In this document: positions 16,743 to 33,203 of the stretch, piece after piece
Position numbering within the stretch: position 1 is the first letter of the stretch
Layout: every line of letters begins with the position of its first letter
Source of the DNA: Rhizophagus irregularis
Taxonomy: Eukaryota; Glomeromycota; Glomeromycetes; Glomerales; Glomeraceae
Length of the DNA stretch: 64,000 bases
Reading direction: 5' to 3'
Assembly: GCF_026210795.1 (NCBI RefSeq)
Contig: NC_089442.1
Location: 1,240,001-1,304,000, forward strand
Program-made: the position numbers and the translations under genes
Notes under the pieces: generated by a model
Database searches by the model: none
What the model was told of the DNA's origin: nothing
What the model saw: the letters and a program-made list of their open reading frames with translations, nothing else

Positions 16743-18328
16743 TTATTGTTTAGTTACAATGAATGTTTCGATTTCTTCAATCTCATAAATTAAATCTGTA
16801 TTTAAATTATTTTCGTAACTTCTACTATAATTTTTAGCATATAAACATTGATTATGATACATAAACAACGAATCAAAACCAAAACCAAATCCAGTACCAT
16901 GATAATCGTATATAGCCTTATCATAATTTCTCACACGACTTATTTTCATATTTTGAGTATCTTTATCGTTTTTAAATGAAAAAATAAAATTATCCGATGA
17001 ATAATAATACTTTGAATTATTGAAACCATTAAGACTTGGAACATTATCTCCAATCGAATTAAACCCAATAGAACTATATCCACCAAATATTTGATTTGTA
17101 TGTTTAACTTTAATTAAAACCAAACTTTCCATTTGACCTTTACATTTATTTTTAAATATTTCATGATTAATACCATCAATACTACCACGATAAATAAGAT
17201 TAAATTTGTAACGTAAAATCCAGAAATCTTCTTTAACAATCCATTTGATAATTATTTTTGCGAGTTTTGGGTTGATAATTTTTGAATCAAATTTTCCTAT
17301 TCTAGGTGGTAATGTGTTTACTTTTGGAAAGGTACCTTTATTATAAAATTCTTCAATTTCTTCATAAACTTGATTAGGAATAATACCCTTATATGGTTTG
17401 ACTTTAATATTAAAATCATCGAAAGTTATATCTACAAATCGAATGAGAAGAATAAATTGATTTAATATTTCCTTTAATGCTTCATAATCTTCATTGTTCC
17501 ATTTGCTTATATCGCACTTCTCACTTCCCGAAACAGGAGTTTGCTCAATACCCCATTTAATTAAGTGATGCAAAGTTACATAGCAATTCTTATTTCCTGA
17601 ACCAGAAGTCTGTTCAATACCCCATTTAATTAAGCGTTCCCAAATGACAACTTCTTTAATTCGTAAGTCATCTCTTTCAAGTACTCTATAAATAATATCT
17701 TTATCTAGTGAAAGAAATTCGTTTGAAGTAATAAATGAGTGTGCATCTTCGCAAATAATTTCAATACAATAATCTTGTAATTTCTTGCAATCACTGATTT
17801 TAAACGCGATATGCAAAACAAGAAAAAAATTTTCCAGAATCCATTCAACTTGTTTTCCAATTAAATAATCTTGAACATAATTAAATAACTCTCCAATGAG
17901 TAATTCATCCGATGCGATTAGTAATTCAAGAATATCTTTACCAGATTTTCCAGTTAGATCAAGTTCACCAATGTAAATATATCTAATTATATTATTATTA
18001 CATTTTTTTTTAATTAATAAATTATTTAATTTAATTTGATAAGAATAATTAAAAAAATGAAAAATTATTCATACCTTAAAATTAAGTCAAAAACATTTGG
18101 TGTAATGTTTGCTTTGTTAAACATGATCATATCATTTTTCTTTGTGATCCAATTAGATGAAAGTGCACTTTTGAAATAAGGAGAACGAGCACGTAAAATT
18201 ACTGAATGAGCACGAAATTCTTTTGTATTTTCGTTTTCTCCAACGTTAATAATAACATCATAATCATCAGCATCATTTAAAATTAAGGAAAAATCTTTCG
18301 AAAGATTGGGATAAAAAAATGAAGTCAT
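16743..18328 (-). CDS. BTB-BACK-TLDc protein with internal duplication (two exons)
   Basis: Exon 1 is 18328-18075 and exon 2 is 17982-16743. The 92-bp intron (donor GTATGA at 18074, acceptor AG at 17984-17983) is phase 2 and joins to LRYIYIGELDL. The product is 497 residues: BTB about 1-85 (DDYDVIINVGENENTKEFRA), BACK about 100-240, and TLDc about 300-495 (YKFNLIYRGSIDGI; SLVLIKVKHTNQIFGGYSS). The segment LIKWGIEQT-GSGNK-C occurs twice in a row (LIKWGIEQTSGSGNKNC, then LIKWGIEQTPVSGSEKC), a tandem duplication of roughly 27 residues within BACK. The ATG at 18328 was chosen because it matches the relatives. The frame stays open upstream to 18490, but that extension (MKKFFSPQNFEK...) has no counterpart in them. 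Confidence 0.88.
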
Positions 18329-19319
18329 TTTAAGAAAAAAAAAAATGATAAGAGGTACAAATAAATAAATATGTAATAAATATTGACGATCAATGACTTC
18401 ATGCATACGTGACCTGCATAAAATGTCACCCCGTGTCACACCCACCGTTTTCATTTTTTCAAAATTTTGTGGTGAAAAAAATTTTTTCATGCCCCCTTAA
18501 ACATCACTGGTCACGTGGGATGAAATTTTACTTAGAAATCTTGGGGTGATACTGGGGTAAATGGACGCCATTTTTCTCGAATTTTTCATGTAGACGAGTA
18601 GAAGATATATAATAATTATTGTTTACTTTATGATTATCATAGATTATAATATAAAAGCATCATAAAAAAACAGACAACTACCATAAAAAAGAATTTTTTT
18701 TTAAAATAAAAAAAAATACCGTATATTGCAGGCCACAGCCGGGAATCTTGCAAATTTTGGGCGTTTCCAGAGGTATATTACATACTGTAAGTGGGTACTA
18801 TACATAGGAGGGTAGACAGGGTACAGAATTTTTAAAATACCCGGGTACTTATATTCGGGTATTGTGGATAATCACTATAATGTAATCTCTCGTTAAGAAT
18901 ATCTAAATGCATCCTATTTCACATATCTTGATACTTTTTAGGATATTTTGCACAAAATTACTTATCTAAATACTCCTATTAATACATAAAAATGTCTTGT
19001 TTGATTTACGTGTCTTCATTTTATGTGTCTTTTTTTTCTTTCTGCTAAAAGTAAAATGGTAGTTATTGGCAACAAGAGAAATAACACACAATTGTTTGCC
19101 ACAAAAGAAATAAAGACAATGAAACGTAAGGGAAAAATTAGAAAACAATAATAGAAATGTACGTGGAACTGCCAAAAGATTTAATATTCAGCTCAAACAA
19201 CTGCGTGATTAGAAAAATAAAAAAGGAACTTTGTTAATGACTACTCCTCATATGGCTAAACTCCATCTGGGTACACCTTCTAAATATCCAAATTAGAAGT
19301 GTATGGATAAGTGAAAAAG
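18329..19319. other. Intergenic DNA, no supported gene
   Basis: Contains an open extension of the preceding gene to 18490 that I judge non-coding, and a somewhat GC-richer stretch at 18720-18860 (CCACAGCCGGGAATCTTGC; ACCCGGGTACTTA) that could be a worn repeat. A 69-codon minus-strand frame at 18966-19175 is not supported. Confidence 0.4.
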
Positions 19320-19860
19320 GAGCCAATGCATGGAAATGTTGTTACGTAACTCGAAAATTAAGCCATTTCCTTATCCAAAAGTCCAGAATTATTAGCAAAT
19401 AATCTGGGTATTGCTGGGTTCAAATTATCTAGTAAGTGGTTTGATGAAGATATGACTAGAAGCAGGTTTGGTTAACGGTTCTATGGGCACTATCCGGGAA
19501 ATAGTGTTCGAAGAAGGTCAGGGTCCTCCACCCTTCCCAATGTGGTCCTAATAGAATTTGATAATTATACTGGTCCCGCTATTGCATAAAAGGCTTATCC
19601 CGATTCCACCCATTAGACATACCTGGGTTGCAAAAAGTGGCACTTGTTCGCGCATGCAAATCCCTATTAGTTTTACTTGTGATATCACTGTACATAAGAG
19701 TCAGGGGCTAACACTATAATAGAACTTGGGAGAAAGGAATATGCCGCTGGTCTCCCATTTGTGGCAATTTTCAGGGTCCGTGCTCTTAATGATGTACTTT
19801 TTGACTTCAACGCATTAAAAACTGTAAGAGGTTGCAAGAGAGGTTGTCTGAAGAAAAGCG
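19320..19860 (+). pseudogene. Pif1-like helicase C-terminal remnant
   Basis: Conserved helicase blocks appear in order but in shifting frames: AGLVNGSMGTIREIVFEEGQ (about 19465-19525), VLIEFDNYTGPAIA (about 19545-19585), CSRMQIPISFTCDITVHKSQ followed by GLTL (about 19645-19710), and IELGRKEYAAGLPFVAIFRV (about 19720-19780). The HKSQGLTL block is the late helicase motif of the Pif1/RecD group. Stops and frameshifts between the blocks make it non-functional. Pif1-type helicases occur alone or inside Helitron transposons. No Helitron ends or Rep domain were seen, so the origin is open. Confidence 0.75.
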
Positions 19861-20066
19861 ATTAATTTCAATGATTAAATCTTTAATAAAATAGTTTAAT
19901 ATGTAATTTTAAACTATTTGTGATAATAAATAAAATTTAGTTAAGAACTGTTTATCAATAAAAAACTTTAACAATTGAGTTTGACAATGAAGATAATATT
20001 TACAAATCGTTGCAAAATATAATAACACCAATAAGTTTCACTTCGGAAAAACATGCAGCGTGATGT

Positions 20067-20679
20067 TGTAACACCTGAGCCCATAGAGAATTATGTTTGC
20101 CACCTCAGGTATTAACAAAATGACTCTTTATTAATAATATAAATAAATACAATAATATGCTTGGTTTAATAACATTAAATAACAAAATAAATAATTCATA
20201 ACAAAATTCGTCTAGTTTTCTCTCTCTGTCCTTTCCAAAAGGTGATCTTCACGCCCTTTTATGTTTGTTTTTGTGTAACTAAATTCATAATTTCGATTCA
20301 TGGATTTAAATTATTAAAGTATTTCCATTGTTTTAAAGTATTTCCATTATCTTAATTTTGTATCCATTTGATCATCATGAACTCCTGAATTATGATTTAT
20401 AATATTAACGTAGTGATCAACAAATTATTCACTTGACATCTCAGATCACTTGATTTCATTCAATTTAGTATCTTTCGGATCTTCATTTATCCTTAAATCT
20501 CGTGACTAATAGTTTATGGTCATCACGGACCAATTATCCTTGATTCTCATGATTAATAGTTTAACGACTTTTCGGTCCAATTAAAAAATAAAAATAAGTT
20601 AAAATTTTTATACACTAAGACTAAATGTAATACTGCGCCTTACAATTAATAAATTTACTAGGTATACTACGGCATTACA
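20067..20679 (-). repeat. 3' LTR (element sense is minus)
   Basis: 613 bp, same sequence as 30031-30643 on direct comparison. On the sense strand it has a TATA-like TATAAAAA near 20613-20606 and an AATAAA at 20132-20127 that could serve promoter and poly-A functions. Confidence 0.93.
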
Positions 20680-20689
20680 ACTATCCCCC
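20680..20689 (-). promoter_or_regulatory. Polypurine tract candidate
   Basis: On the sense strand GGGGGATAGT sits directly before the 3' LTR. This is the position where plus-strand DNA synthesis is primed in LTR elements. Called from position and purine content. Confidence 0.6.
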
Positions 20690-21016
20690 GCATAAAAATT
20701 TAATGCCCACATTAAATTTATTCTAAGAATCGAACTCGTGTCTCGAAGTGGTAGGTGCGAATTATACCACTAAATCAAGCATGCATTGTCACTTGACTCA
20801 GCTGCGTTTTAAATATTCCTTTTTGCTGCGTCTACATCTGCGGTTTATCATGTGTTTGTTAAGTCTACGGTTTTCCTGTACCGGATTTCACTTCGGTCTT
20901 TCTTAGGAGATTTTCATTAGTTTTTCCTATTTTCGAAAATTATTTTTATGTCATGTGATTTTATTTCACATGATTATAAATTATCTTTATTTTTCTAAGT
21001 CCATTGATGATAGTTA

Positions 21017-21307
21017 TCATTTACTCATCGGTGTATGGTAAGTCTTTAATAATTCTCCATTTACAGGTATCTTCTTGATGACACCTTTAATATTTTTAAT
21101 TCTATAAGCTCCATTCGGTAGTATTTCATGAATGTAAAATGGTCCCAACCATTTTGATTCTAATTTTCCCGATAGTTGTTGTGCTTTGGCTTTATCATAG
21201 AGTAGTATTTTATCTCCAATTCCAAAGGTGTGTTCTTTGATTATTTTTCTGTCATGATACTCTTTTTGTTTTGTTTGAGATTTCAGTATTTGTTCTTTGG
21301 CTTCATG
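21017..21307 (-). pseudogene. Integrase C-terminal part beyond an in-frame TGA
   Basis: The integrase frame stays open for 96 codons after the TGA, ending at 21017. It contains DKILLYDKAKAQQLSGKL and then SKWLGPFYIHEI, the GPY/F module that ends many Ty3/gypsy integrases. The single TGA (a CGA to TGA change would explain it) therefore looks like a lesion or a read-through site, not the natural end. Confidence 0.8.
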
Positions 21308-22798
21308 TCAGATTTTTGGTAGTTCTTCTAATAATCCAACTATTCTATCACTTAGGTTAATTTCTTTGATATTTTCATCCATTATTGTCCGTACATTTCT
21401 TCCGTATGTTAAATAAAATGGTCGAATTTTTGTTGAACTATGCTTTTTATTTCGGTAAGCAAATAATATGGGTGCTATCCTTTGATCCCAATCATCTTTG
21501 GTTGATAATTTTGCTAATGCTTGACCTAACGTTCGGTTGAATCTTTCAACAAGTCCGTTTGTCTCTGGATGATAACTTGTAGAAAAATTCCATTTAATTT
21601 TGAATTTTTCCATTAATTCCTTAATCATTTCATTATTGAAATGACTTCCTCTATCACTCAATATTTTCATTGGACATCCATGTCTACAAATGATGTCTTC
21701 ATAAATAAATTTTGATACTTCTTTGGCAGTTGCTTCTTTTACTGCTTTGGCTTCTGGCCATTTTGTAAAATAATCCATTGCTACTATGATGTATTTATTA
21801 CCATTTGTTGTTGTGTTCAATGGTCCAACAAAGTCAATCCCGATTTGATACCATGGTTCTACTACTTTAATTGGGTGTAATTCATTTTTCCCTTGTGGTT
21901 TTCCTCTTCTTTGACATTCATCACATGTCCTTACATATCTTTCAACATCATTCAGCATATTTTCCCAATAATATTTATCTTTTAAATTATCATAAGTACT
22001 TTTGATTCCCATATGTGCCGATAATTCATGACTGTGAGCTAAATATAGTGCTCCCATCTTTTCAAAGTCTTCTATTATTCTTATGTTTTTACCATTTTTC
22101 TCAATATGCTTTTTACCATCAGTTACTCTGATGTTATCCTTAATCTCAACATTTTTAACCTCTATTGGTGGTTTATCTCCATCTAATTCTATTACTTTAT
22201 TATATACTCTTTCCCAATCTGTGTCATTATTCGATATTTTAATATTAGCATATCTTTCTCCTTCGTAAATATCTTGACATTCTTTAAATGATTTCACCAT
22301 CTCCATATATCTTTCTTCATCTAATAATGGATATGATGTTTTATGTCCTTGATCCTTTTTCGAATGTTCTCTACCTTTGTAATTTTCCCAACATTTTTCA
22401 TTTTCTAAAAATATCACTATTGATTCATCAATTATCCTTTTGTTCCTAAATACTTCCTTTTCTAATAGGTGGTTCTCATATCTTGTTATGTATCCTCTGT
22501 CGAATGATGGTGTTTGTTGATAAAAGTACTCACTATAGGGACTTTTATCTAATATTAACCAATCCTCATTATCATGTTCTTCCATTCTCCTGTTGATTTG
22601 TTCGACAACTTCCTTCCTGAATTCCCATTCTATACCTTTCTTTGGTATTTTATACTTATCATTGTCCTCTCTTCTCCTTTTAAAGGTGTTAAACCTCACA
22701 CTTTGTCCTACTTTTTCAAATTCTTTTATAAGTTTATTTACAATGAATGTTTTTCCAGTACCATCAACTCCACATATGATTATTATTTTAGGTCCCAT
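21308..22798 (-). CDS. Nucleotide kinase-integrase fusion of the retrotransposon
   Basis: 496 codons. Residues about 1-205 form a P-loop kinase of thymidylate-kinase type: Walker A GVDGTGKT at 10-17, DKSPYSEYFYQ at 84-94 where thymidylate kinases have the DR-Y/S-S-x-x-AYQ block, and an Arg/Lys-rich lid-like part near 140-152. Residues about 250-296 are the integrase zinc finger (H257, H262, C292, C295). The core follows with D322, D382 and E418, a D-35-E spacing. The kinase would phosphorylate nucleoside monophosphates; this could raise dTTP for reverse transcription, which is my inference. The ATG overlaps the end of the preceding frame by 11 bp. An in-frame TGA at 21310-21308 cuts off the C-terminal part. 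Confident on domains, unsure of kinase substrate. Confidence 0.88.
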   Translation of the reverse strand: MGPKIIIICGVDGTGKTFIVNKLIKEFEKVGQSVRFNTFKRRREDNDKYKIPKKGIEWEFRKEVVEQINRRMEEHDNEDWLILDKSPYSEYFYQQTPSFDRGYITRYENHLLEKEVFRNKRIIDESIVIFLENEKCWENYKGREHSKKDQGHKTSYPLLDEERYMEMVKSFKECQDIYEGERYANIKISNNDTDWERVYNKVIELDGDKPPIEVKNVEIKDNIRVTDGKKHIEKNGKNIRIIEDFEKMGALYLAHSHELSAHMGIKSTYDNLKDKYYWENMLNDVERYVRTCDECQRRGKPQGKNELHPIKVVEPWYQIGIDFVGPLNTTTNGNKYIIVAMDYFTKWPEAKAVKEATAKEVSKFIYEDIICRHGCPMKILSDRGSHFNNEMIKELMEKFKIKWNFSTSYHPETNGLVERFNRTLGQALAKLSTKDDWDQRIAPILFAYRNKKHSSTKIRPFYLTYGRNVRTIMDENIKEINLSDRIVGLLEELPKI

Positions 22799-23027
22799 TT
22801 TTACATAATTCTGATAATTTTAGCTTGTTTACTTTACTTAATATCACCTCTATTTGTAATATTTCCTCTTGAGTTTCCAATATTAATGGTCTTTCTTCAC
22901 TATCTTCAAAATTTTTGGCTTTGAATTTATAGTTATAATTTATCCTGTTTAATTCCTTTGTTATACCTTCTAAATTTTCGATTATATCCTTTATTTTATG
23001 ATTTGTATTTCTTACCACTTGTTCCAT
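22788..23027 (-). CDS. Small 79-residue frame between RT and kinase-integrase
   Basis: Starts MEQVVRNTNHKIKDIIENLE and is rich in Lys, Glu, Leu and Ile with heptad-like spacing, suggesting a helical or coiled-coil segment. It uses the same frame as the RT gene but follows two in-frame TAA codons. Its last codons overlap the kinase-integrase ATG (stop TAA 8 bases after that ATG begins), an arrangement that would suit reinitiation. I recognise no family. It may be a real small protein or a linker once continuous with the RT product. Confidence 0.4.
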   Translation of the reverse strand: MEQVVRNTNHKIKDIIENLEGITKELNRINYNYKFKAKNFEDSEERPLILETQEEILQIEVILSKVNKLKLSELCKNGT

Positions 23028-23063
23028 TTTTATTTTTGGAAAGTAACTCTTTTACCCATCTAT

Positions 23064-24545
23064 TTATATTATTCTTGATAAGGCATCTGCATTTTTATTT
23101 TCTTTTCCTGGTCTATGGGTTATTTCAAAATCATACTGTTCCAATTCCATGACCCATCTTGATCTCTTTCCTTTTGGTACTTTTGCAGTCATTAATCCCT
23201 TCAAAGCTGCATGGTCTGTTACTACCTCAAATTTTCTATTGATCAAGTATTTATGGAAATGTTGTATTCCCCATACAATTGCATAACATTCTTGTTCGGT
23301 TATTGGCCATCTTTGTTCTGTCCTGTTTAAACTTTTACTGGCATATTCTATTACATATTCTTGACCTTTATCATCTTTTTGAGCTAACACTGCCCCTAAT
23401 CCTATTCCTGAAGCATCTGTAATTAATATAAATTTCCTTAACCAATCTGGTTGTCTTAACACCGGTTCTTCGGTTAATTTCCTTTTTAATATTTCTAATG
23501 CTTCATGTTGTTTGATGCCCCATTCAAACTTTTCATCTTTTCTCAATAAAGATGTTATTGGTTTTACTATTTTTGAAAAATCTTTAATAAATTTTCTATA
23601 ATACGTACATAACCCTAATATTGACCTTACACCTTTTATATTTATAGGTGCTGTTAATTTTTGTATCTTTTCAACCTTTCCTGGACTTGGTTTTAATCCA
23701 TTCTTACCAACTACATGTCCTAAAAATTCTATTTCTGTTTTCCCAAATATACATTTCTTTAACTTTAGTATTAAACTGGCTTCCTTTAATTTTTCTAACA
23801 CTAACTTTATGTGTTTTAGGTAATCTTCGAAATTTTCCGAATATATCATTATATCATCAATGTATACTATCACAAATTCATTTAGGTACTCCTTTAATAC
23901 TTTATCCATTAACCTTTGAAAACTTGCAGGTGCATTTGTTAACCCAAATGGCATGACATTATATTCATATAATCCTGCCGAGCATATGAATGCTGTTTTC
24001 TCAATATCTTCCTCAGCCATTTCTATCTGATTAAACCCTGATGCTAAATCTAGACTGGTAAACCATTTTCCTGAACTTATCCTTTCTAATTGTTCATCAA
24101 TCCTCGGTAATGGATATGCATCTGTTATTGTAACTTTATTTAATTTTCTATAATCGATGCAAAATCTATAATTTCCTGACTTTTTCCCTGCTAAAGTCAC
24201 TGGTGAAGACCATGGACTTCTAGATTCTCTAATTTTTCCCAATTTTAACATCTCGTCAACCTCTTTTCTGATGAATTTACCTTTTTCATCATTTTCTTTG
24301 TACCTCTTTTGGGCTATTGGTTCAGTACCCCCTTTTAATCTGATTTCATGTTTTACTAGGTTTGTCCTATTATATTTTTCACCATCGTACTCAAATATAT
24401 CCTTATATTTTTCTACTAATACTTTTAATTTACCTTTTTGTTCATTGGTTATGTCCCCTACTTTAAATTTTTCAGTAAATTTTTCATGGTCACTTTTGTG
24501 CTTCTTTATCGTCTCTTCAGTATCATTCTGACCAAGACTTATACT
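23064..24545 (-). CDS. Reverse transcriptase-RNase H of the retrotransposon
   Basis: Open frame of 493 codons; the first ATG is at 24251 (395 residues from there), but the RT homology begins before it. Counting from that ATG: RFCIDYRKLNK at 29-39, first catalytic Asp in LDLASGFNQI (D68), YIDD at 130-133, FLGHVVGKNG at 176-185. RNase H shows TDAS (D279), E319, TDHAAL (D346) and the final NADALSR (D389). It copies the element RNA into DNA and degrades the RNA strand. Its frame is -1 relative to Gag, with only a 7-bp overlap and no obvious slippery heptamer. No internal damage. Confidence 0.95.
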   Translation of the reverse strand, partial: SISLGQNDTEETIKKHKSDHEKFTEKFKVGDITNEQKGKLKVLVEKYKDIFEYDGEKYNRTNLVKHEIRLKGGTEPIAQKRYKENDEKGKFIRKEVDEMLKLGKIRESRSPWSSPVTLAGKKSGNYRFCIDYRKLNKVTITDAYPLPRIDEQLERISSGKWFTSLDLASGFNQIEMAEEDIEKTAFICSAGLYEYNVMPFGLTNAPASFQRLMDKVLKEYLNEFVIVYIDDIMIYSENFEDYLKHIKLVLEKLKEASLILKLKKCIFGKTEIEFLGHVVGKNGLKPSPGKVEKIQKLTAPINIKGVRSILGLCTYYRKFIKDFSKIVKPITSLLRKDEKFEWGIKQHEALEILKRKLTEEPVLRQPDWLRKFILITDASGIGLGAVLAQKDDKGQEYVIEYASKSLNRTEQRWPITEQECYAIVWGIQHFHKYLINRKFEVVTDHAALKGLMTAKVPKGKRSRWVMELEQYDFEITHRPGKENKNADALSRII

Positions 24546-27500
24546 TTAAAATTTTCATCTTCCTGACCTTCATGGTCATCTTCATATATGTTATACAATT
24601 CATCCTGGTATAATTCTTCTAATATTTCCTCTTCATCAAATGTTTCTTCAAACCCTTTAATGGTCCTTTGTGTGTATCTTACTGGTATATCCATAGTTTC
24701 ATCATTCATTCTAATTATTATTGTTTTATCTGTGTAATCTATATTTGCTTTGAACATATCTAATACTCCATTTCCTAACACAATTTCGTTTTTTCCTGAA
24801 TCAATTACTTCAACCTTAATGGGTATTTCCTTATCCCCAAATTGTATGTATATTGTCGTGGTACCCCTAGATGCTAATTTATCCTCATTTATCATCACAC
24901 ATCTTACTGTACTCGGTTCCTCAATTTTTAGGTCCATTTCATCCATTATCTGACTAGTTATTACATTTACTGCTGCTCCTGTATCAAACATTACGTCCTT
25001 TAATTCTTGGTTTATTATTAATTTACCCCTTAATGCAGTTAAATGTTCTGCTTCAATGTTGTTCATTGATTCTTGTAGTAAATCTGTTTGTGGATACCTT
25101 CTCATTCCTTCATAATATATTTTCCTTTGCTCTGGACTCATGTTTATAATTTGTGAAAAGGTTGCATTTGCTCTGGTATTTTTCAGATCCTCTATTATGT
25201 TATATTCTGGTATGTTCCTCTGAAATGCGCTTGTCCTATGGATACCTTCAACACGTTCATTTTTACATTGTTTTGCATAGTGACCTCTTTGTCCACAATT
25301 TCCACATGTATTATTATTTCTCCTTGCTTCTTGTGCTTTCCTCAGACTTTCATCAGTGAATCCTCTTTTTGGTAATGCTGTTGCCCTTTCCTCTTGGCTT
25401 GCATATTTATTATTCCTTCTTCGTGTTTGTTCTTGGTCAATTTCCATATCTACATCTCGATTACTTGACCTATTCTTTATGTTACTTCTCGTTTGTCTTT
25501 CACCAATATAAAAATCTTGATCAACATGGTTAAATGTTACATCATTATCTTGGTAATACGGGTCATCATAACTATATCCTTGGTCATAATTATCCTGATA
25601 ATCCTGACTATCATAATCATATTGGTCATATTGGTCATTATAATTATCATATTCCACTACATTGAATCCTCGATTATTGTTTTGGTAGTTTGGTGGTCTG
25701 TTATAGTTATTTGGTCTTCCATTATAGTTATTTGATCTTCTATTATAATTTTGATTATTTGGTCTTCCATAGTTTCTTTGACCATTATTTACCCTACATT
25801 CATTTGCATAATGTCCTGGTTGTTTACAATTATAACATGCTCGAGGTGGTGGTCCTTGTCTATTATTATTGTTTGGTGGTCTCTTTTGCCCTCCAAGTTG
25901 ATTTACTAGTTTTACCTCTAATTTTTTAAACATGTCGGCAAGGTCATCCTCATAATTTTTCTCCAATGGTTTTTCAAATATATTCTTTGGTTTGTCATCT
26001 TGTATATCGATTCCTTTTCTTTGGGTACTAACTGATATACCACGTGTCTTTCTTATTAATTCATTAGTAGCTTCCTCTTCTCTTCTTGCTGTATTCACTG
26101 CATCATTTAAGTTTGCTGGGTTTTGTCTTCTGACTTGATATCCCAATGTTGGTGTTAATCCTTCGATATAATTATCCACTTGTAATTCATCATCTAATGC
26201 ATGGCCTCTGGTAGCTATCCTTAATATTTGTCTAAACCTTATCGTATATGCCTCAACATTTTCATTTACTCCTTGTGTTATTTTCCTTAATTCTAACATT
26301 TTCCTTTTTCTAACATCTTCCCTGGTAAATCTTTGTTTAATCCTATGTTTTAAATCATTATCATTATCGTTATCTTGCCAATTTACCAAATGACCATTGT
26401 TTGCTTCCTTCTTTTCATTATACCATTGTGCTGCTGCACCTTTCAAACAGGTAGCTGCCATTGCTGCTTGTCTAGCTCCATTTACTCCTGCTGCTTTTCC
26501 TATAGCAGTAAATGCTGTTTCAAATTGTCTTACCCAATCGTTTATGTCTTCTTCTTCCCTTCCATAAAATTGTGGCATACTAATTATTCCTCCAGCTACA
26601 TTTCCTGCATCCTCAATTGCATTTGCTAATGGGTTGGCTGCGACTAATCCAGCCCAATTACCTCCTATATCATGTCCCGTTGCTGCTAGTAAAGCCGCTC
26701 TAAAATCTTCCCTTACTTCAGCTCTTGTTGCTCCCATAATTATTGGTACTATTGGTGGGATTGGTGGTATCGGTGGTGTTAAAGGTGTTTCAAATAAATT
26801 TTCTATATTATAATCAGATATTTCACTTTTATCCTCAGAGTTTGATTCTGAACTTTCACTTGAGTCAAAACCAGGTCTATTTATAATGTTTTCTTCATAA
26901 GGTTCTTCAAAATTTTCATTGTTATCAGTATCATTTGGATTTAAAATTTCTCCGTCTTTTCCAGATCCATCTGATTTTTCATTATCAGATTCATTTCCAC
27001 TACTTTCACTATCCTCAATTCCAGCTTGCTGTTTTAGAAATTTATCTAATATTCGCCTTAAATTTTTCTCCATTTCATTTTTATTTCCTTGGAATATTTC
27101 AATAAATTCTTGATCCAATATTTCTCCATCAGTATATCCCATACTGATTAACCTCAATAACTCTCCATTAGTTATTTCTATTTTATTATTATCACATACT
27201 TGTTTCAATCTTTTAACCCTGATATCAATTTCATTTTCGTCATTTTCACAATCCCTACACTTGGTTTTTCCTTCGTCAAATTTATTGTTTATCCATCTTA
27301 TTTCACATTCATCACAAAATGTGGTATTTTCATTTGTCCATTCATATAATTTTATCTTTAATTCTTTATCATCTGAATCAATTTCTTGAAAATATTTTTC
27401 CATGAATTCCATCGTTAATATTATGCTATTGCTTATCCTTAACTCCTTTATTCTCCTTGTCTCTAAAATATCTAGTTCATATCCTAATTTTTCTAAATCA

Positions 27501-28642
27501 TCTTTTAATTCTAATACCTCGGTTAACTCACACTTTCTACATTGTTGTGAATCTTCCATCATATCAGGTAATTTTTTGTTTCCACAATCCTTACATGTTA
27601 ATGTTTCTCTTACTAACCATTCATTTATCTCATCTTTCAATTTTTCATCACTTAGTCCCATTAATTCGAAAAATGTACCTAAAAAGTCCTCTGTTAATAT
27701 CAATTCTATCCTTATCCTTAGGTCCCACATTCTTTGTATATCTTTGTCGGTGAACCTTCCACCCATTTCTTCAATTTTTCTTTTTAATGATTCCACTGTC
27801 CATTCGACATCATCCTCTATTTTTATTTCATAATGTATACTACCATCACTGTCCTCTAATTCATAACTTTCAGGACTAGCACTTTCTGGGTCTTCAGGTT
27901 CCCTTGTAAATTGTTTGGTGTCAATAAATCTTTGTAACACTTTCCGTATCAATCTTTCCCATTCTTGTTGTTTTGATTCTCCCTCTCTTAATGGGTTCCT
28001 GTAAACAATTGTACTTGTTAAATCTATTACTTTTCTCATATTTTTAGTTATGTTTTCTTCCATGTATAATAATTTCCTGAATATCACTATCGTTTCTGGT
28101 GTCGCATGGATTGCTTCCACCCCAAATTCTAATATTGAACCGTACCATTCCCAAAATTTTTGAAATCTGTTTTCAACATCCCAATCTTCCAAAATATATC
28201 CATGTTCCATTATTTCTGGACATCCAATTAACCGGTCAAATACTTCATTTTCTAAATTTCCTTCAATACAATCCCTTACAATTACTACAATTATTATCCT
28301 TAAACCTTTTTCCTTCATTTTTGGTTGTTGTCTGTACCTTATTGATTCAATTATTCTATCTACTATATTCCTACATTTTCCCTTATGTATTGTATCCTCC
28401 CTTTCTCTATTGTCCATACTTAATAAATTCAATAATTCTTTATGTGTTACATTATTGTACATTAGTATTGTATCCTCGAATTTAAACAAAGCATCCCAAA
28501 ATTTCTTGAATGCCGCTGATACATCTCTTTCTATTGGGTTACATATTTCACATGCTAAACATTCCTCTGGTTCTATCACTCCTAGGTCATGTTCTTGTTT
28601 ATGGTTTATATATTCAGCGTTCCAAACATGGTACCATTCCAT
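24539..28642 (-). CDS. Gag-protease polyprotein with long zinc-ribbon N-terminal extension
   Basis: 1367 residues. Residues 1-635 are an extension absent from usual Gag: helical repeats about 282-371 and 379-465, each ending in a CxxC...CxxC cluster (CKDC/CRKC at 350-371; CDEC/CRDC at 443-465), a third repeat without Cys about 475-540, then an acidic Ser-rich linker and PPIPPIPPI. Residues about 690-870 are the retrotransposon Gag domain (MPQFYGREEEDINDWVRQFE; AAAQWYNEKK). CCHC knuckles lie at 936-949 (CYNCKQPGHYANEC) and 1113-1126 (CGNCGQRGHYAKQC), separated by an Asn/Tyr/Asp-rich stretch. Protease follows, with DTGA at 1220-1223. An internal ATG (M636, MGATRAEVRE) could start a conventional-size Gag. 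Confidence 0.92.
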   Translation of the reverse strand: MEWYHVWNAEYINHKQEHDLGVIEPEECLACEICNPIERDVSAAFKKFWDALFKFEDTILMYNNVTHKELLNLLSMDNREREDTIHKGKCRNIVDRIIESIRYRQQPKMKEKGLRIIIVVIVRDCIEGNLENEVFDRLIGCPEIMEHGYILEDWDVENRFQKFWEWYGSILEFGVEAIHATPETIVIFRKLLYMEENITKNMRKVIDLTSTIVYRNPLREGESKQQEWERLIRKVLQRFIDTKQFTREPEDPESASPESYELEDSDGSIHYEIKIEDDVEWTVESLKRKIEEMGGRFTDKDIQRMWDLRIRIELILTEDFLGTFFELMGLSDEKLKDEINEWLVRETLTCKDCGNKKLPDMMEDSQQCRKCELTEVLELKDDLEKLGYELDILETRRIKELRISNSIILTMEFMEKYFQEIDSDDKELKIKLYEWTNENTTFCDECEIRWINNKFDEGKTKCRDCENDENEIDIRVKRLKQVCDNNKIEITNGELLRLISMGYTDGEILDQEFIEIFQGNKNEMEKNLRRILDKFLKQQAGIEDSESSGNESDNEKSDGSGKDGEILNPNDTDNNENFEEPYEENIINRPGFDSSESSESNSEDKSEISDYNIENLFETPLTPPIPPIPPIVPIIMGATRAEVREDFRAALLAATGHDIGGNWAGLVAANPLANAIEDAGNVAGGIISMPQFYGREEEDINDWVRQFETAFTAIGKAAGVNGARQAAMAATCLKGAAAQWYNEKKEANNGHLVNWQDNDNDNDLKHRIKQRFTREDVRKRKMLELRKITQGVNENVEAYTIRFRQILRIATRGHALDDELQVDNYIEGLTPTLGYQVRRQNPANLNDAVNTARREEEATNELIRKTRGISVSTQRKGIDIQDDKPKNIFEKPLEKNYEDDLADMFKKLEVKLVNQLGGQKRPPNNNNRQGPPPRACYNCKQPGHYANECRVNNGQRNYGRPNNQNYNRRSNNYNGRPNNYNRPPNYQNNNRGFNVVEYDNYNDQYDQYDYDSQDYQDNYDQGYSYDDPYYQDNDVTFNHVDQDFYIGERQTRSNIKNRSSNRDVDMEIDQEQTRRRNNKYASQEERATALPKRGFTDESLRKAQEARRNNNTCGNCGQRGHYAKQCKNERVEGIHRTSAFQRNIPEYNIIEDLKNTRANATFSQIINMSPEQRKIYYEGMRRYPQTDLLQESMNNIEAEHLTALRGKLIINQELKDVMFDTGAAVNVITSQIMDEMDLKIEEPSTVRCVMINEDKLASRGTTTIYIQFGDKEIPIKVEVIDSGKNEIVLGNGVLDMFKANIDYTDKTIIIRMNDETMDIPVRYTQRTIKGFEETFDEEEILEELYQDELYNIYEDDHEGQEDENFKV

Positions 28643-29190
28643 TTTTAATAAAATTCTCTAAAAATTTTCACGTCTTTTACTTTTTATCCTTCTTTTATAT
28701 TTTATTTGACCTATACTGGGCTTGCCTTTACCTCATTTGTTCATTACTGAGTATGGTAGTTTACAGGTTTGTACAAATAAATTTATATTCCATAAAATTT
28801 TCCAACCTAAGGTTGAAGTGTGAATCCATATTTGATTTGTCCGATTATTTGTTGTATTTCCAAGACTGATGTATCTTTCCTCGGTGTCAACAATTCATTT
28901 AATAAGTGGGAGATTCAAATCTCCCTCTTTCATATGCTCCTACTACGCCTCTAATTCTATTATATCCTAAAATTTACTGTGCTTTGATAATCTTTAATTA
29001 ATAATCTCGACACCTGTATTGACATTTTATATAATTTTACTACGCTACAAAATCTCTTATCATTTATATCCTTATTAATTTTTAATAACTTTCCTTGAAT
29101 ATATTTGTCCAGCAAACATTATTTTAATTTTTGTTAACGTTAATCATGATTCTTCTTGGGTACCCTCACACAGAATTGTTTTTGGAAGTT

Positions 29191-29437
29191 CACACAGAAC
29201 TATTCTCAATTGATCACACAGAATACCTCAATTGAGTTCACACAGAAAAAGCTCACACAGAACTATTCTCAATTGATCACACAGAAAACCTCAATTGAGT
29301 TCACACAGAAAAAGCTCACACAGAACTATTCTCAATTGATCACACAGAAAACCTCAATTGAGTTCACACAGAAAAAGCTCACACAGAACTATTCTCAATT
29401 GATCACACAGAAAACCTCAATTGAGTTCACACAGAAT
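29191..29437. repeat. 63-bp tandem repeat, about 3.9 copies
   Basis: Units start at 29191, 29254, 29317 and 29380 and are nearly identical. Each unit has three CACACAGAA words and two CAATTG palindromes in inverted contexts (CTCAATTGATC and CTCAATTGAG). It is multiple-of-three in length, so it stays open on the plus strand. Confidence 0.95.
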
Positions 29438-30011
29438 TACCCCACCATCGTATTTATAGTGTCAGCTTTTGGGTACACTTTTTATCCTTAACTTAACCTC
29501 AATTATTTATAAAAATTATTTTTAATCCTTAATTCATGGAACTTATTTACAATATTCTATTAAAACCCCTTCTAACTTGATTAGCCTCGCATTTCCCTTG
29601 ATAATCAATTACTACCATACATATTTGGTTCATATGTATGAAAATTATTATAATAATAATTTTTCATTGACTTATCAGCCGGTGGTCAAGTTAGATCAAA
29701 AATTTAATTTTGAACATTATCTCTTCATACATTTATGGTCATACTTACCCAAATTAATACTTTTTACATTGGTAACCATTGTTTTTACGTATCCTTTAAA
29801 ATATTTGACTTTATTTTATTAAAATTTAACGTTAATACGCCTTAAATTCTTTTTTTAACCAAGACTTAGAACTTTTAATTTTATAATTCCTTAACTTCGT
29901 CGATCCTTTATTTGTAACTTCTAATGATCACGTGGGGGTGATCATTTTCTTTTCTCAGAGATCCTGTACTTATAACCTGTAGTGATCATGTGAGGATGAT
30001 CACTTTTCCTT

Positions 30012-30028
30012 TCTCGGAGCATGCACCA
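30012..30028 (-). promoter_or_regulatory. tRNA primer-binding-site candidate
   Basis: Two bases after the 5' LTR the sense strand reads TGGTGCATGCTCCGAGA. TGG is the expected complement of a tRNA CCA end. I do not assign the tRNA; its 3' end would have to read AGCATGCACCA. Confidence 0.5.
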
Positions 30029-30030
30029 CT

Positions 30031-30643
30031 TGTAACACCTGAGCCCATAGAGAATTATGTTTGCCACCTCAGGTATTAACAAAATGACTCTTTATTAATA
30101 ATATAAATAAATACAATAATATGCTTGGTTTAATAACATTAAATAACAAAATAAATAATTCATAACAAAATTCGTCTAGTTTTCTCTCTCTGTCCTTTCC
30201 AAAAGGTGATCTTCACGCCCTTTTATGTTTGTTTTTGTGTAACTAAATTCATAATTTCGATTCATGGATTTAAATTATTAAAGTATTTCCATTGTTTTAA
30301 AGTATTTCCATTATCTTAATTTTGTATCCATTTGATCATCATGAACTCCTGAATTATGATTTATAATATTAACGTAGTGATCAACAAATTATTCACTTGA
30401 CATCTCAGATCACTTGATTTCATTCAATTTAGTATCTTTCGGATCTTCATTTATCCTTAAATCTCGTGACTAATAGTTTATGGTCATCACGGACCAATTA
30501 TCCTTGATTCTCATGATTAATAGTTTAACGACTTTTCGGTCCAATTAAAAAATAAAAATAAGTTAAAATTTTTATACACTAAGACTAAATGTAATACTGC
30601 GCCTTACAATTAATAAATTTACTAGGTATACTACGGCATTACA
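30031..30643 (-). repeat. 5' LTR (element sense is minus)
   Basis: 613 bp, appears identical to 20067-20679. It should hold the promoter of the element; the TATA-like run falls about 65-70 bp from its outer edge. Confidence 0.93.
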
Positions 30644-31905
30644 ACGTCCGATTCGGACGTTTAACGGTCACCGTTATCTAGTATATAAAAGCTAATCAAC
30701 TGTAGTTTTTTAAAAATGTAATTAAAAATGTTATATATTTGAAATTCATAAAGTTGATTATTTGTAAATAAATATATAAAAGAATTCTAAAAAGTTGCTA
30801 TAATTAACAATTAGACAATTCTTTTCATACTTTAAAAATTAAAATATCTTTTTTATTTGAAATTTAAAATCTAGATTTCAAATAAAAAAAAATTTGAGTG
30901 ATTTTCATCAGGAATTTATAAACTTTCATGAATGAAAATTACCAAGCATTTTTAATGAATCCAGTAATTTATTGTGGGTACGTGTATTACTTCTAGTTTT
31001 ATTTTCTTTTAAACAATCTTTTTTTTTATTTTTGCTTTTTTCTCTTCATAAAGGATCATAAAGGTAAATTCTAAAATTCTATGAACTAAATAAGTTTTAA
31101 AACTCTGACAAATTGATTTTGCAGTTTATGATTTTAGCTACGATATATTAATAGTTTAATATAAAAGTTTATTTAATCATATTTACGTTGTAAAAAAATA
31201 TTTTAAATATACTATAAGCTAAGACTATTTATTTATTAAACAAATGTATAATGCGCAAAAATTATTCTATTCTTTTTATAGAATCTTATTGTCCGAAGTG
31301 TTAGCTGAACTAGCAAAATTTGTTTTAACCCCGTTTTTGTCCCTGTCACAATCAATAATTTTATTTCCTTTTTTTGAATATGTATCACGATTTATGTAAC
31401 ACTACCTATTTGAACCCTGAAATATGTCAAATAAATAAATGACACGTAACACTTGCGAAGCGAAGGACTTAAACGGTTTCCGTTTCCTAGCTTAATTATT
31501 GCTATTTTCCTCTTAATAGTCCGCGAAAGAAATACTTGAATGACTGGGGCTAATTTTAATATGTTTTCCTAGTATTTTTAATTGAAAAAATAAATTACAA
31601 ATGAATATAAATTATATAAATAGATTAGATTGAATTAAACAAATATTTTACCATTATTTCTACTAGTATTAATATTTGATTCTTCAATATTTCGCTTAAT
31701 TCCGAGTAAATTTGACTTACTAGTGTATAAAATTGTATTGAGTAAATGATTTTTAAATTTAGATTTCGTAAGGATAGCGAAAATATTTTACTTTAAAATA
31801 CCTTTCAACTAGATCTATGTCAAAATCAAATTCTAGCGAAGCATAATCTATAAAAAGAAATTTAACATATTTATCCAAAGATTTGGTCAATAATATTTAT
31901 CTATC
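30644..31905. other. Intergenic DNA, no gene seen
   Basis: AT-rich; starts with the palindrome CGTCCGATTCGGACG right beside the retrotransposon. The remainder shows no family remnant. Its right end is the probable 3' untranslated region of the kinase gene. Confidence 0.45.
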
Positions 31906-33203
31906 TTATTTTTTAGTACACCACATACCTTTTGAAGAATATTTAGACGAGCATTTAGAAATGAAAGACTTCAATGATCTACTTGTATAAATAGCACTTG
32001 GATGAGGTTTTTCACTAAACTCGGGTCCAAGTTTCTTTAAACTTATTAATTCTAATCTTTTCGATTCAGCTTGATTAAAAGGTTCAATATTTTTATTTTT
32101 AAAAAACCATTTACCAAAGGTTTTACGAATTTCTGTCATAGAAGGTCTTTTTTTAGGATCAGGATCCCAACAACTTTTCATTAAACTAGCATAGCATTCT
32201 GGTGTATTTTCCGTAATTTTAGGTCGTTCCCCATCAAGAATTTTAAAAGCAAGCTCAATTTCATGTTCATCATTAGCAAAAGGTTTACAACCTGTTGTAA
32301 GCTCCCACATAATCATACCCATACAATAAACATCAGATTCTTTAGAAAATCCAGACCCTCTAAATATTTCTGGTGCAATATAAGGTATCACCCCATATAT
32401 TTCATTATTTGATGACGTATTATTTGAAGGTTGTGATAATCCTAGATCTCCAATTTGCCATTGATGTCTTTTTTTAATTGATGATTCTTCTCCTCGTCGT
32501 CGTAATTGGTTCATGCCTGATAACCTGGATAATATGTTTCCACTATGAAAATCTCGATGTATAAAATCTGAATTATGAATAGTTTCGAGTCTGAAATAAA
32601 AAAAATAAAATTAATAAATTGGAATTTATAATATTAATAATATATTTATCTAATTACCCTTCAGAAATTTGCCACAAAATAGCTAATTTTTGTTTATTCC
32701 ACGTAATTCCTCTAAAATTCTTTTGCAACCAGTTATGTAAATCTCCTCCTGATGCATATTGCATAACTAACATATAATCACCTAATTTATCTTTCGTAAC
32801 TCCATAAATTCTAATAATATGATATTTAATTTCATAACAATGTTGATTCGACTTTAGCTAAAATTTCATGATTAAGTATTTTTTAAGTTATATAATTTTA
32901 ATAAATAAATATACGAATATTTACGATTAAAATAATGTTTACCTCCTTTAAAAAATATTTGCTAAAGTCTTGAGAATTTTTAAACTTTTTTAAAACGACT
33001 GCTTCCCCATTATAACTTCTGCCACACCAAGTTGCTTGGTATATAATACTAAATCCTCCCTCCGCTACTTTTTTTACATCTTCAAATTGAATATATGGTA
33101 TCCATCCCATCAACTTTTCTGGTTGTTGAGTATTATAACTTCGGTCAATAGTTGAATTTATTTCTGATGGAAGAAAATAGTCAGTATTTTTTATTTTATC
33201 CAT
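31906..33203 (-). CDS. Tyrosine-kinase-like protein kinase domain (three exons)
   Basis: Exons 33203-32943, 32857-32658 and 32590-31906; introns of 85 and 67 bp with GTAAAC/AG and GTAATT/CAG borders. The join gives FLKE-LKSNQHCYEIKYHII and QISEG-LETIHNSDFIHRDFH. From the ATG at 33203 the product is 381 residues: glycine loop VAEGGFSIIYQATW at about 47-60, ATP-binding Lys in VVLKKF (K72), catalytic HRDFHSGN, GDLGLS in place of DFG, YIAPEIFRG, and the C-lobe end CWDPDPKKRPSM. This kinase-only family is greatly expanded in Rhizophagus. All catalytic residues are present. The frame continues upstream of the ATG into a zinc-binding part that is broken (separate entry), so the true start is uncertain. 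Confidence 0.85.

Follow-up and report, generated by a model that had tools for sequence, protein, structure and literature searches.

Architecture of the element

The window, namely the whole stretch of 64,000 nucleotides of Rhizophagus irregularis DNA that was analysed (for the species, see the accessible parts of PMC8647823 and PMC11075540), contained a Ty3/gypsy element on the minus strand at 20067-30643, which was a young insertion with identical LTRs. A preliminary description, made from the letters of the sequence, had already called the two LTRs apparently identical, and there was no mismatch across 616 bases (20066-20681 versus 30030-30645); the TG...CA ends gave an LTR length of 613 bp. 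In the genome as a whole, 40 of 258 candidate LTR matches were scored, among them 17 LTR pairs. The target repeat of 4 bases was exact in nine of ten other copies, and three of the four bases agreed in the tenth copy and in the window element itself (ATGT/ACGT). The Pfam domains of the element were arranged in the order gag-PR-RT-RNaseH-IN (Table 1), and its G+C content was 30-33%.

Table 1. Features of the Ty3/gypsy element, in window coordinates
Feature	Position	Strand	Basis or remark
3' LTR (TG...CA)	20067..20679	-	same sequence as 30031-30643; ends fixed from 10 other copies
polypurine tract GCGGGGGATA, adjoining the 3' LTR	20682..20691	-	sequence reading
integrase C-terminal part, lying beyond the stop at 21308-21310 that severs it from the core in this copy	21017..21307	-	
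integrase core (rve)	21566..21847	-	Pfam E 7e-11
integrase H2C2 zinc-binding domain	21902..22048	-	Pfam E 1.4e-17
predicted nucleotide-kinase domain, 198 aa, GVDGTGKT P-loop, DKSPYSEYFYQ	22205..22798	-	phrog_761 E 1.5e-13; AF2 model
79-aa ORF separating RT-RNaseH from the kinase	22788..23027	-	its stop overlaps the kinase start
RT-RNase H frame, 493 codons	23064..24545	-	Pfam E 1.7e-40 and 3.1e-36
RNase H	23133..23438	-	Pfam
RVT_1	23712..24185	-	Pfam
gag-protease frame: capsid, two CCHC knuckles, aspartic protease, N-terminal extension of ~690 aa	24539..28657	-	
leader (5' LTR to gag): 63-base tandem repeat in four units	29186..29436	-	98% alike
5' LTR	30031..30643	-	LTR identity and comparison of copies

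The minus-strand frame at 21308-22819 comprised 503 open codons and ran without interruption from the kinase to the integrase core (residues 325-418), with the H2C2 zinc finger (residues 258-306) in between, just as the preliminary description had read it. The kinase started at its own ATG at 22798, within the 3' end of the 79-aa ORF. The frame ended at 21308 because a stop lay inside the integrase, and the C-terminal part beyond it had a weak Pfam match to SH3_Tf2-1 (E 0.01). Five of the 35 copies of the window family, the window copy included, had a frame of 503 codons, and 22 had one of at least 600 codons; therefore, intact copies existed in the genome.

The gag-protease frame matched Retrotrans_gag (E 1.4e-11), zf-CCHC (E 4.7e-8, in two stretches) and RVP_2 (E 9.1e-6). 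Its long N-terminal extension, located before the capsid at 26588-28657, held CxxC pairs and had a weak match to HypA under the cut-off (E 0.00035). The gag-PR and RT frames overlapped briefly at 24539-24545, as they also did in loci L001-L003, L006 and L007, and GTCTTGG or TCTTGG just past this overlap was common to several families. A host gene with BTB, BACK and TLDc frames adjoined the element (16743-18496). An Rfam search of 18000-33000 gave no match.

Distribution, frame partners and history of the kinase

A search of the 147-Mb genome for other elements with the window kinase yielded 150 scored match pieces among 179 candidates, which made up 146 places after pieces less than 1 kb apart were merged. 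Identity to the window kinase was 88-100% for 35 of the matches and near 60% for most of the others. For RT-RNaseH, 110 of 341 candidates were scored, at 64-100% identity to that of the window, and in 108 of these 110 closest matches a kinase followed in the same orientation at a distance of no more than 2 kb. In the remaining two, the next kinase piece on the same strand was 4.4 and 15.3 kb downstream; the copy with the greater distance had an LTR pair 24.6 kb apart, a spacing that a nested insertion would explain. Of the 30 longer kinase loci (L001-L010 and L021-L040), 28 had an integrase match, and L033 and L035 had none. Taken together, the 108 of 110 and the 28 of 30 ruled out both a neighbouring host gene or assembly artefact and a one-off fusion. 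Thus, the kinase belonged inside the LTR element, as had been supposed, and other copies carried it as well.

The frame in which the kinase was encoded differed between families. Outside the window family, RT, RNase H and kinase shared one open frame of 641-779 codons in 66 of 76 RT rows, and at least 180 kinase residues were held by 65 of these 66 frames; the RT frame reached at least 600 codons in 67 of the 76 rows. Approximately ten residues separated the end of RNase H from the kinase in L006, and the integrase of L003-L008 was in a separate frame. A kinase in frame with integrase was found only in the window family (the window copy, L001, L002 and L039), where a stop closed RT-RNaseH and the 79-aa ORF then intervened before the kinase. 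Within that family, L039 was without the 79-aa ORF, and its kinase was in the same frame as RT-RNaseH with two stops between them. Since the window family was nested in the RT tree (support of the forks 81 and 86), the arrangement with the kinase on RT was probably the older one.

Accordingly, the kinase-integrase fusion claimed in the preliminary description stood for the window family, whereas elsewhere the partner was RT-RNaseH. The conserved unit was a kinase located after RNase H and before integrase, which in most cases shared the RT-RNaseH frame. Since this was the usual frame, the kinase was unlikely to have a role tied to integrase and more likely to act at reverse transcription. Between kinase and integrase, L007 had an additional ORF (about 118 aa, L007:3028-3381) with no clear match in Pfam (best DUF4659, E 0.036), and L034 aligned at 91-94% along this stretch.

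The RT tree was made from 36 rows, each matched over 360 of 371 residues, and in it one branch with SH-aLRT 100 parted 21 rows with a kinase from 15 without. The kinase-free set was drawn from 17 RNase H matches chosen as outgroups for varied frame lengths, of which 15 were kinase-free and 2 had a kinase. The RT of the kinase-free relatives was 49-58% identical, with L045, L047 and L053 as the nearest (57-58%); in these relatives RT-RNaseH was apart from integrase and a linker occupied the site of the kinase. The simplest history would be that the kinase was captured once, at this site between RNase H and integrase. On the IN tree (matches over 183 of 196 residues) a second change was counted, because L040 was tagged as having no kinase by a length filter, yet it held kinase residues 1-177.

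Several other loci were of separate interest. RT-RNaseH and integrase were separate ORFs in L045 and L047 as well as in the kinase clade. In L042 and L043, from a kinase-free gypsy family, a Cys-containing stretch of about 280 aa followed RNase H and might represent another capture at this site. Finally, L010 (on C17) was a diverged kinase-integrase copy with an interrupted kinase and the second motif NKSPYCK, and there was no RT match within its fetched stretch.

The kinase phylogeny differed from those of the neighbouring domains. The kinase set comprised matches over 190 of 198 residues, excluding L040 and L057, and the kinase tree additionally excluded L009 and L011-L020 (nine doublets and L015). 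The kinases of L007, L034 and L038 were of the L006 type (support 99). The integrases of the same three loci grouped with L004 (support 94), and so did the RTs of L007 and L034 (support 99). In comparisons per 100 bases, L007 was 96-100% identical to L004 from RT through the linker (901-2400) and 70-79% identical to it in the kinase (2401-2900), where its identity to L006 was 89-92%. These alignments indicated that the kinase had been swapped as a cassette between element families, with the first edge of the exchange at a domain boundary.

The codon model, applied to copies free of stops, gave an omega of 0.079 for the kinase (24 sequences), compared with 0.038 in RT (14) and 0.055 in IN (22). 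For the kinase, the log-likelihood was -3990.2 with free parameters versus -4458.8 when omega and kappa were held at 1 and 2, a loss of 468 units. Pairwise medians (dS 0.1-1.2) were 0.085 for the kinase, 0.146 for RT and 0.119 for IN; their order was opposite to that of the tree-based values, and every value was far below 1. Thus, the kinase was under purifying selection, with an omega of 0.08 across families.

In favour of a passive passenger or an inactive ATP-binding domain, stops were found in 6 of 32 distinct fetched kinases (26 were without a stop) and the tree-based omega was somewhat above that of RT. However, stops are expected of any old copies, and the codon test contradicted this reading, as did the invariant active-site motifs and the presence of the kinase after the closest RTs in 108 of 110 cases within 2 kb and in the other two at a distance. 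We therefore consider a passive domain very improbable.

Sequence, predicted fold and relatives of the kinase

The P-loop kinase of thymidylate-kinase type named in the preliminary description was recovered by profile searches, which gave significant matches to kinase families. Residues 3-194 of the window kinase matched phrog_761, 'thymidylate kinase', and a phrog_761 match was found in all 11 copies chosen across families (best E 5.1e-15). Among Pfam families, AAA_28 was above the cut-off for the 198-aa kinase piece (28.6 versus 27 bits) and Thymidylate_kin (PF02223) was under it (21.9 versus 27 bits); both were under the cut-off when the whole 503-aa frame was scanned. Sequence comparison with solved structures gave weak matches, which were for the most part P-loop-wide.

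The P-loop GxDGxGK[ST] was present in all 32 distinct fetched copies with more than 190 kinase residues matched, and DKSPY[SC]EY[FY]YQ was present in 31 of them. Kinases of dTMP have a DR motif after the third strand. This expected DR was absent from the retrotransposon kinases (hereafter retro-kinases): the second motif was DK in 31 of the 32 copies and NK in L010.

From an alignment with 48 viral relatives, AlphaFold2 modelled the window kinase at a pLDDT of 78 and a pTM of 0.74, and a single-sequence model was poor (pLDDT 34.4). Because the former drew on phage kinases that were 12-25% identical to the window kinase, it leaned to the TMPK/dNK fold. Foldseek found 124 PDB chains at E<=0.001, and the 50 of them that were listed included thymidylate, UMP-CMP, adenylate, deoxynucleoside, polyphosphate and adenylyl-sulfate kinases as well as two GPN-loop GTPase rows. 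In VIA-align, the top match was the bacterial thymidylate kinase 4edh (Z 13.8, 177 residues, 3.1 A); human deoxycytidine kinase followed within 1 Z (13.1), and the best dGK had 12.5. Phage Tmk ranked first in the viral structure library. The window kinase was thus predicted to have a thymidylate/deoxynucleoside kinase fold, subject to the alignment bias just described.

The fusion seen in the window family would also suit an ATPase of transposition, similar to IstB or TnsC, that guided integrase to its targets, and the NCBIfam IstB helper model matched the window kinase at E 0.009 within the P-loop region. On the other hand, the kinase of most other rows shared a frame with RT-RNaseH, the integrase of L003-L008 was separate, and a nucleotide kinase fold was predicted. 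This reading appeared to us highly improbable. The fold matches listed, which were part of all matches, included no AAA+ family, although such a list does not prove its absence.

Relatives among phages were remote. The window protein had no match to phages at E 0.01 and none in viral_contigs, and the kinase alignment A1 gave no match in viral_contigs or, by pattern scan, in the prokaryote genome collection. With the L003 kinase and a limit of E 10, tblastn matched 116 phage records, the best at E 3e-3, with an identity of about 25% over 91% of the L003 kinase. A profile of the retro-kinases matched viral ORFs weakly (best E 3.6e-5; 32 rows at E 0.01). When 11 retro-kinases were aligned with 25 viral relatives by hhalign, the result was 98.6% over 106 columns with E 4.8e-16, a value that applied to that single comparison. 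Membership of phrog_761 was confirmed for two phage proteins that bore the annotation thymidylate or polynucleotide kinase (E 1.6e-22 and 3.3e-22). All 25 viral relatives in alignment A4 had DR at the second motif, whereas the retro-kinases had DK.

Seven phage regions were chosen from the 116 matched records, and in all seven the kinase relative was near dUTPase, MazG or thymidylate synthase; these were seven records from about four phage groups, two were confirmed as phrog_761, and one, Acj9, matched at E 8 only. Some of the relatives in Gordonia phage records were annotated 'polynucleotide kinase'. This annotation would be in line with a polynucleotide 5'-kinase that mended nicked template RNA, primer tRNA or cDNA ends prior to integration. 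However, the RefSeq copies of SheckWes and Cozz named the same gene thymidylate kinase instead, the phage neighbours were dNTP enzymes, and the listed matches of the modelled fold were mostly kinases of dNMPs, nucleosides and other small molecules. We thus regard a polynucleotide kinase as improbable.

The thymidylate kinase gene of the fungus itself (C13:3242213-3242981) encoded a canonical eukaryotic TMPK in several exon-like pieces. The origin of the retro-kinase from this gene was unsupported, given its canonical sequence and its exon-like pieces; a very old origin from a host thymidylate kinase is possible.

Proposed function and comparison with known systems

The explanation that we favour, and hold to be reasonably probable, is that a clade of Ty3/gypsy elements captured once a kinase of the TMPK/dNK fold related to phrog_761, that this kinase is packaged with RT, and that it phosphorylates dTMP to supply dTTP. 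The capture would have placed the gene between RNase H and integrase, so that the kinase became part of pol; in most families it would form a C-terminal domain on RT-RNaseH, and in the family of the window the N-terminal domain of the integrase. Packaged together with RT, it would phosphorylate dTMP, and perhaps other dNMPs, beside the polymerase, and the NDP kinase of the host would complete dTTP from its product. The cDNA would need much dTTP because the G+C content of the element is low. In this way AT-rich cDNA could be synthesized despite low dNTP pools, which would benefit the element in non-dividing hyphae or spores. The boost to dNTP supply suggested in the preliminary description would thus fit these data. 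The host is a coenocytic fungus with resting spores. The single capture, catalysis, the dTMP substrate, packaging and the gain for the element in hyphae or spores that do not divide are what we infer.

We favoured dTMP as the substrate because the phage neighbours, the fold and the profile agreed, and deoxynucleosides were the main rival. The domain could be a salvage kinase that acts on thymidine or other deoxynucleosides rather than on dTMP, with the same benefit for cDNA. The dCK and dGK structures were near the thymidylate kinases in the comparison with the model, and since the deoxycytidine kinases tied structurally, the fold does not single out dTMP. Moreover, Pfam dNK matched 4 of the 11 chosen members at E<0.01, and the DKSPYSEY motif resembles the 'ERS' motif of dNK. 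On the other hand, Pfam Thymidylate_kin matched all 11 members at E<0.01, the P-loop GVDGxGK is TMPK-like, and the phage relatives annotated as thymidylate or polynucleotide kinase were located near dUTPase or thymidylate synthase. We consider a deoxynucleoside kinase rather unlikely.

Several observations counted against the favoured dTMP kinase packaged with RT. The second motif was DK and not the DR of the viral relatives, PF02223 was under the cut-off for the window protein, and the phage relatives were remote. Stops occurred in some of the kinases, and the tree-based omega of the kinase was about twice that of RT. Moreover, a dTMP kinase alone would yield dTDP, and no dUTPase domain was found among the Pfam matches at E<=1 of five ORFs (for the 503-aa frame, among the best 25 of 26 matches).

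A more far-reaching version of this proposal, which we put forward tentatively and with rather less than even confidence, is that a single chain would combine RT and RNase H with a dTMP-type kinase, which would feed precursor to the polymerase on site. This would be a stable trait of the whole clade that enabled copying in the non-dividing, nutrient-limited hyphae of an arbuscular mycorrhizal host, and the cassette would be traded between families.

The kinase was a real, selected and clade-wide module of gypsy retrotransposons. In the accessible parts of the open-licence literature searched, no retroelement with a nucleotide kinase was described, consistent with the view of the preliminary description that such a fusion was not known, and an account elsewhere is possible. 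The module was a further case of the capture of nucleotide enzymes known from retroelements. It offers a simple enzyme amenable to testing in an abundant gypsy group, and an example of the exchange of a protein cassette between element families with an edge at a domain boundary.

Similar to the phage thymidylate kinases of phrog_761, the retro-kinases had the sequence profile, the P-loop and a D[RK]xxxSExxY motif. Unlike them, they were encoded in pol and had DK, whereas the phage kinases were free-standing genes with DR. The host thymidylate kinase was likewise a P-loop kinase, but its gene had the DR motif and consisted of exon-like pieces, and the retro-kinase was not a recent copy of it.

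In retroelements, a captured dUTPase keeps uracil out of the cDNA. According to the parts of the sources available to us, the dUTPase of non-primate lentiviruses was located between RNase H and IN and was needed in non-dividing cells (PMC4531489; see also PMC2427051). The retro-kinase resembled it as an enzyme of nucleotide metabolism captured between RNase H and integrase. Its fold and reaction were unrelated to those of the dUTPase, and it was mostly encoded in the RT-RNaseH frame. In fungal Ty3/gypsy elements (PosPlaTy3), as far as the accessible text describes them, dUTPase was found at one or the other end of pol, or else between PR and RT (PMC2864245). This was similar to our case in that a nucleotide enzyme was added to the pol of a fungal gypsy element, but the enzyme was a kinase here and a dUTPase there. 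LTR elements of bdelloid rotifers had captured ORFs for dUTPase, DEDDy exonuclease and GDSL esterase, and in both systems enzyme ORFs were captured and shared as modules; unlike here, a nucleotide kinase was absent there, the word 'kinase' appearing nowhere in the main text of that source as available to us (PMC5408684). The presence of a captured kinase at the site in pol where others have dUTPase suggests that the supply of precursors can itself limit retrotransposition, and that elements bearing RT may solve this supply in more than one way.
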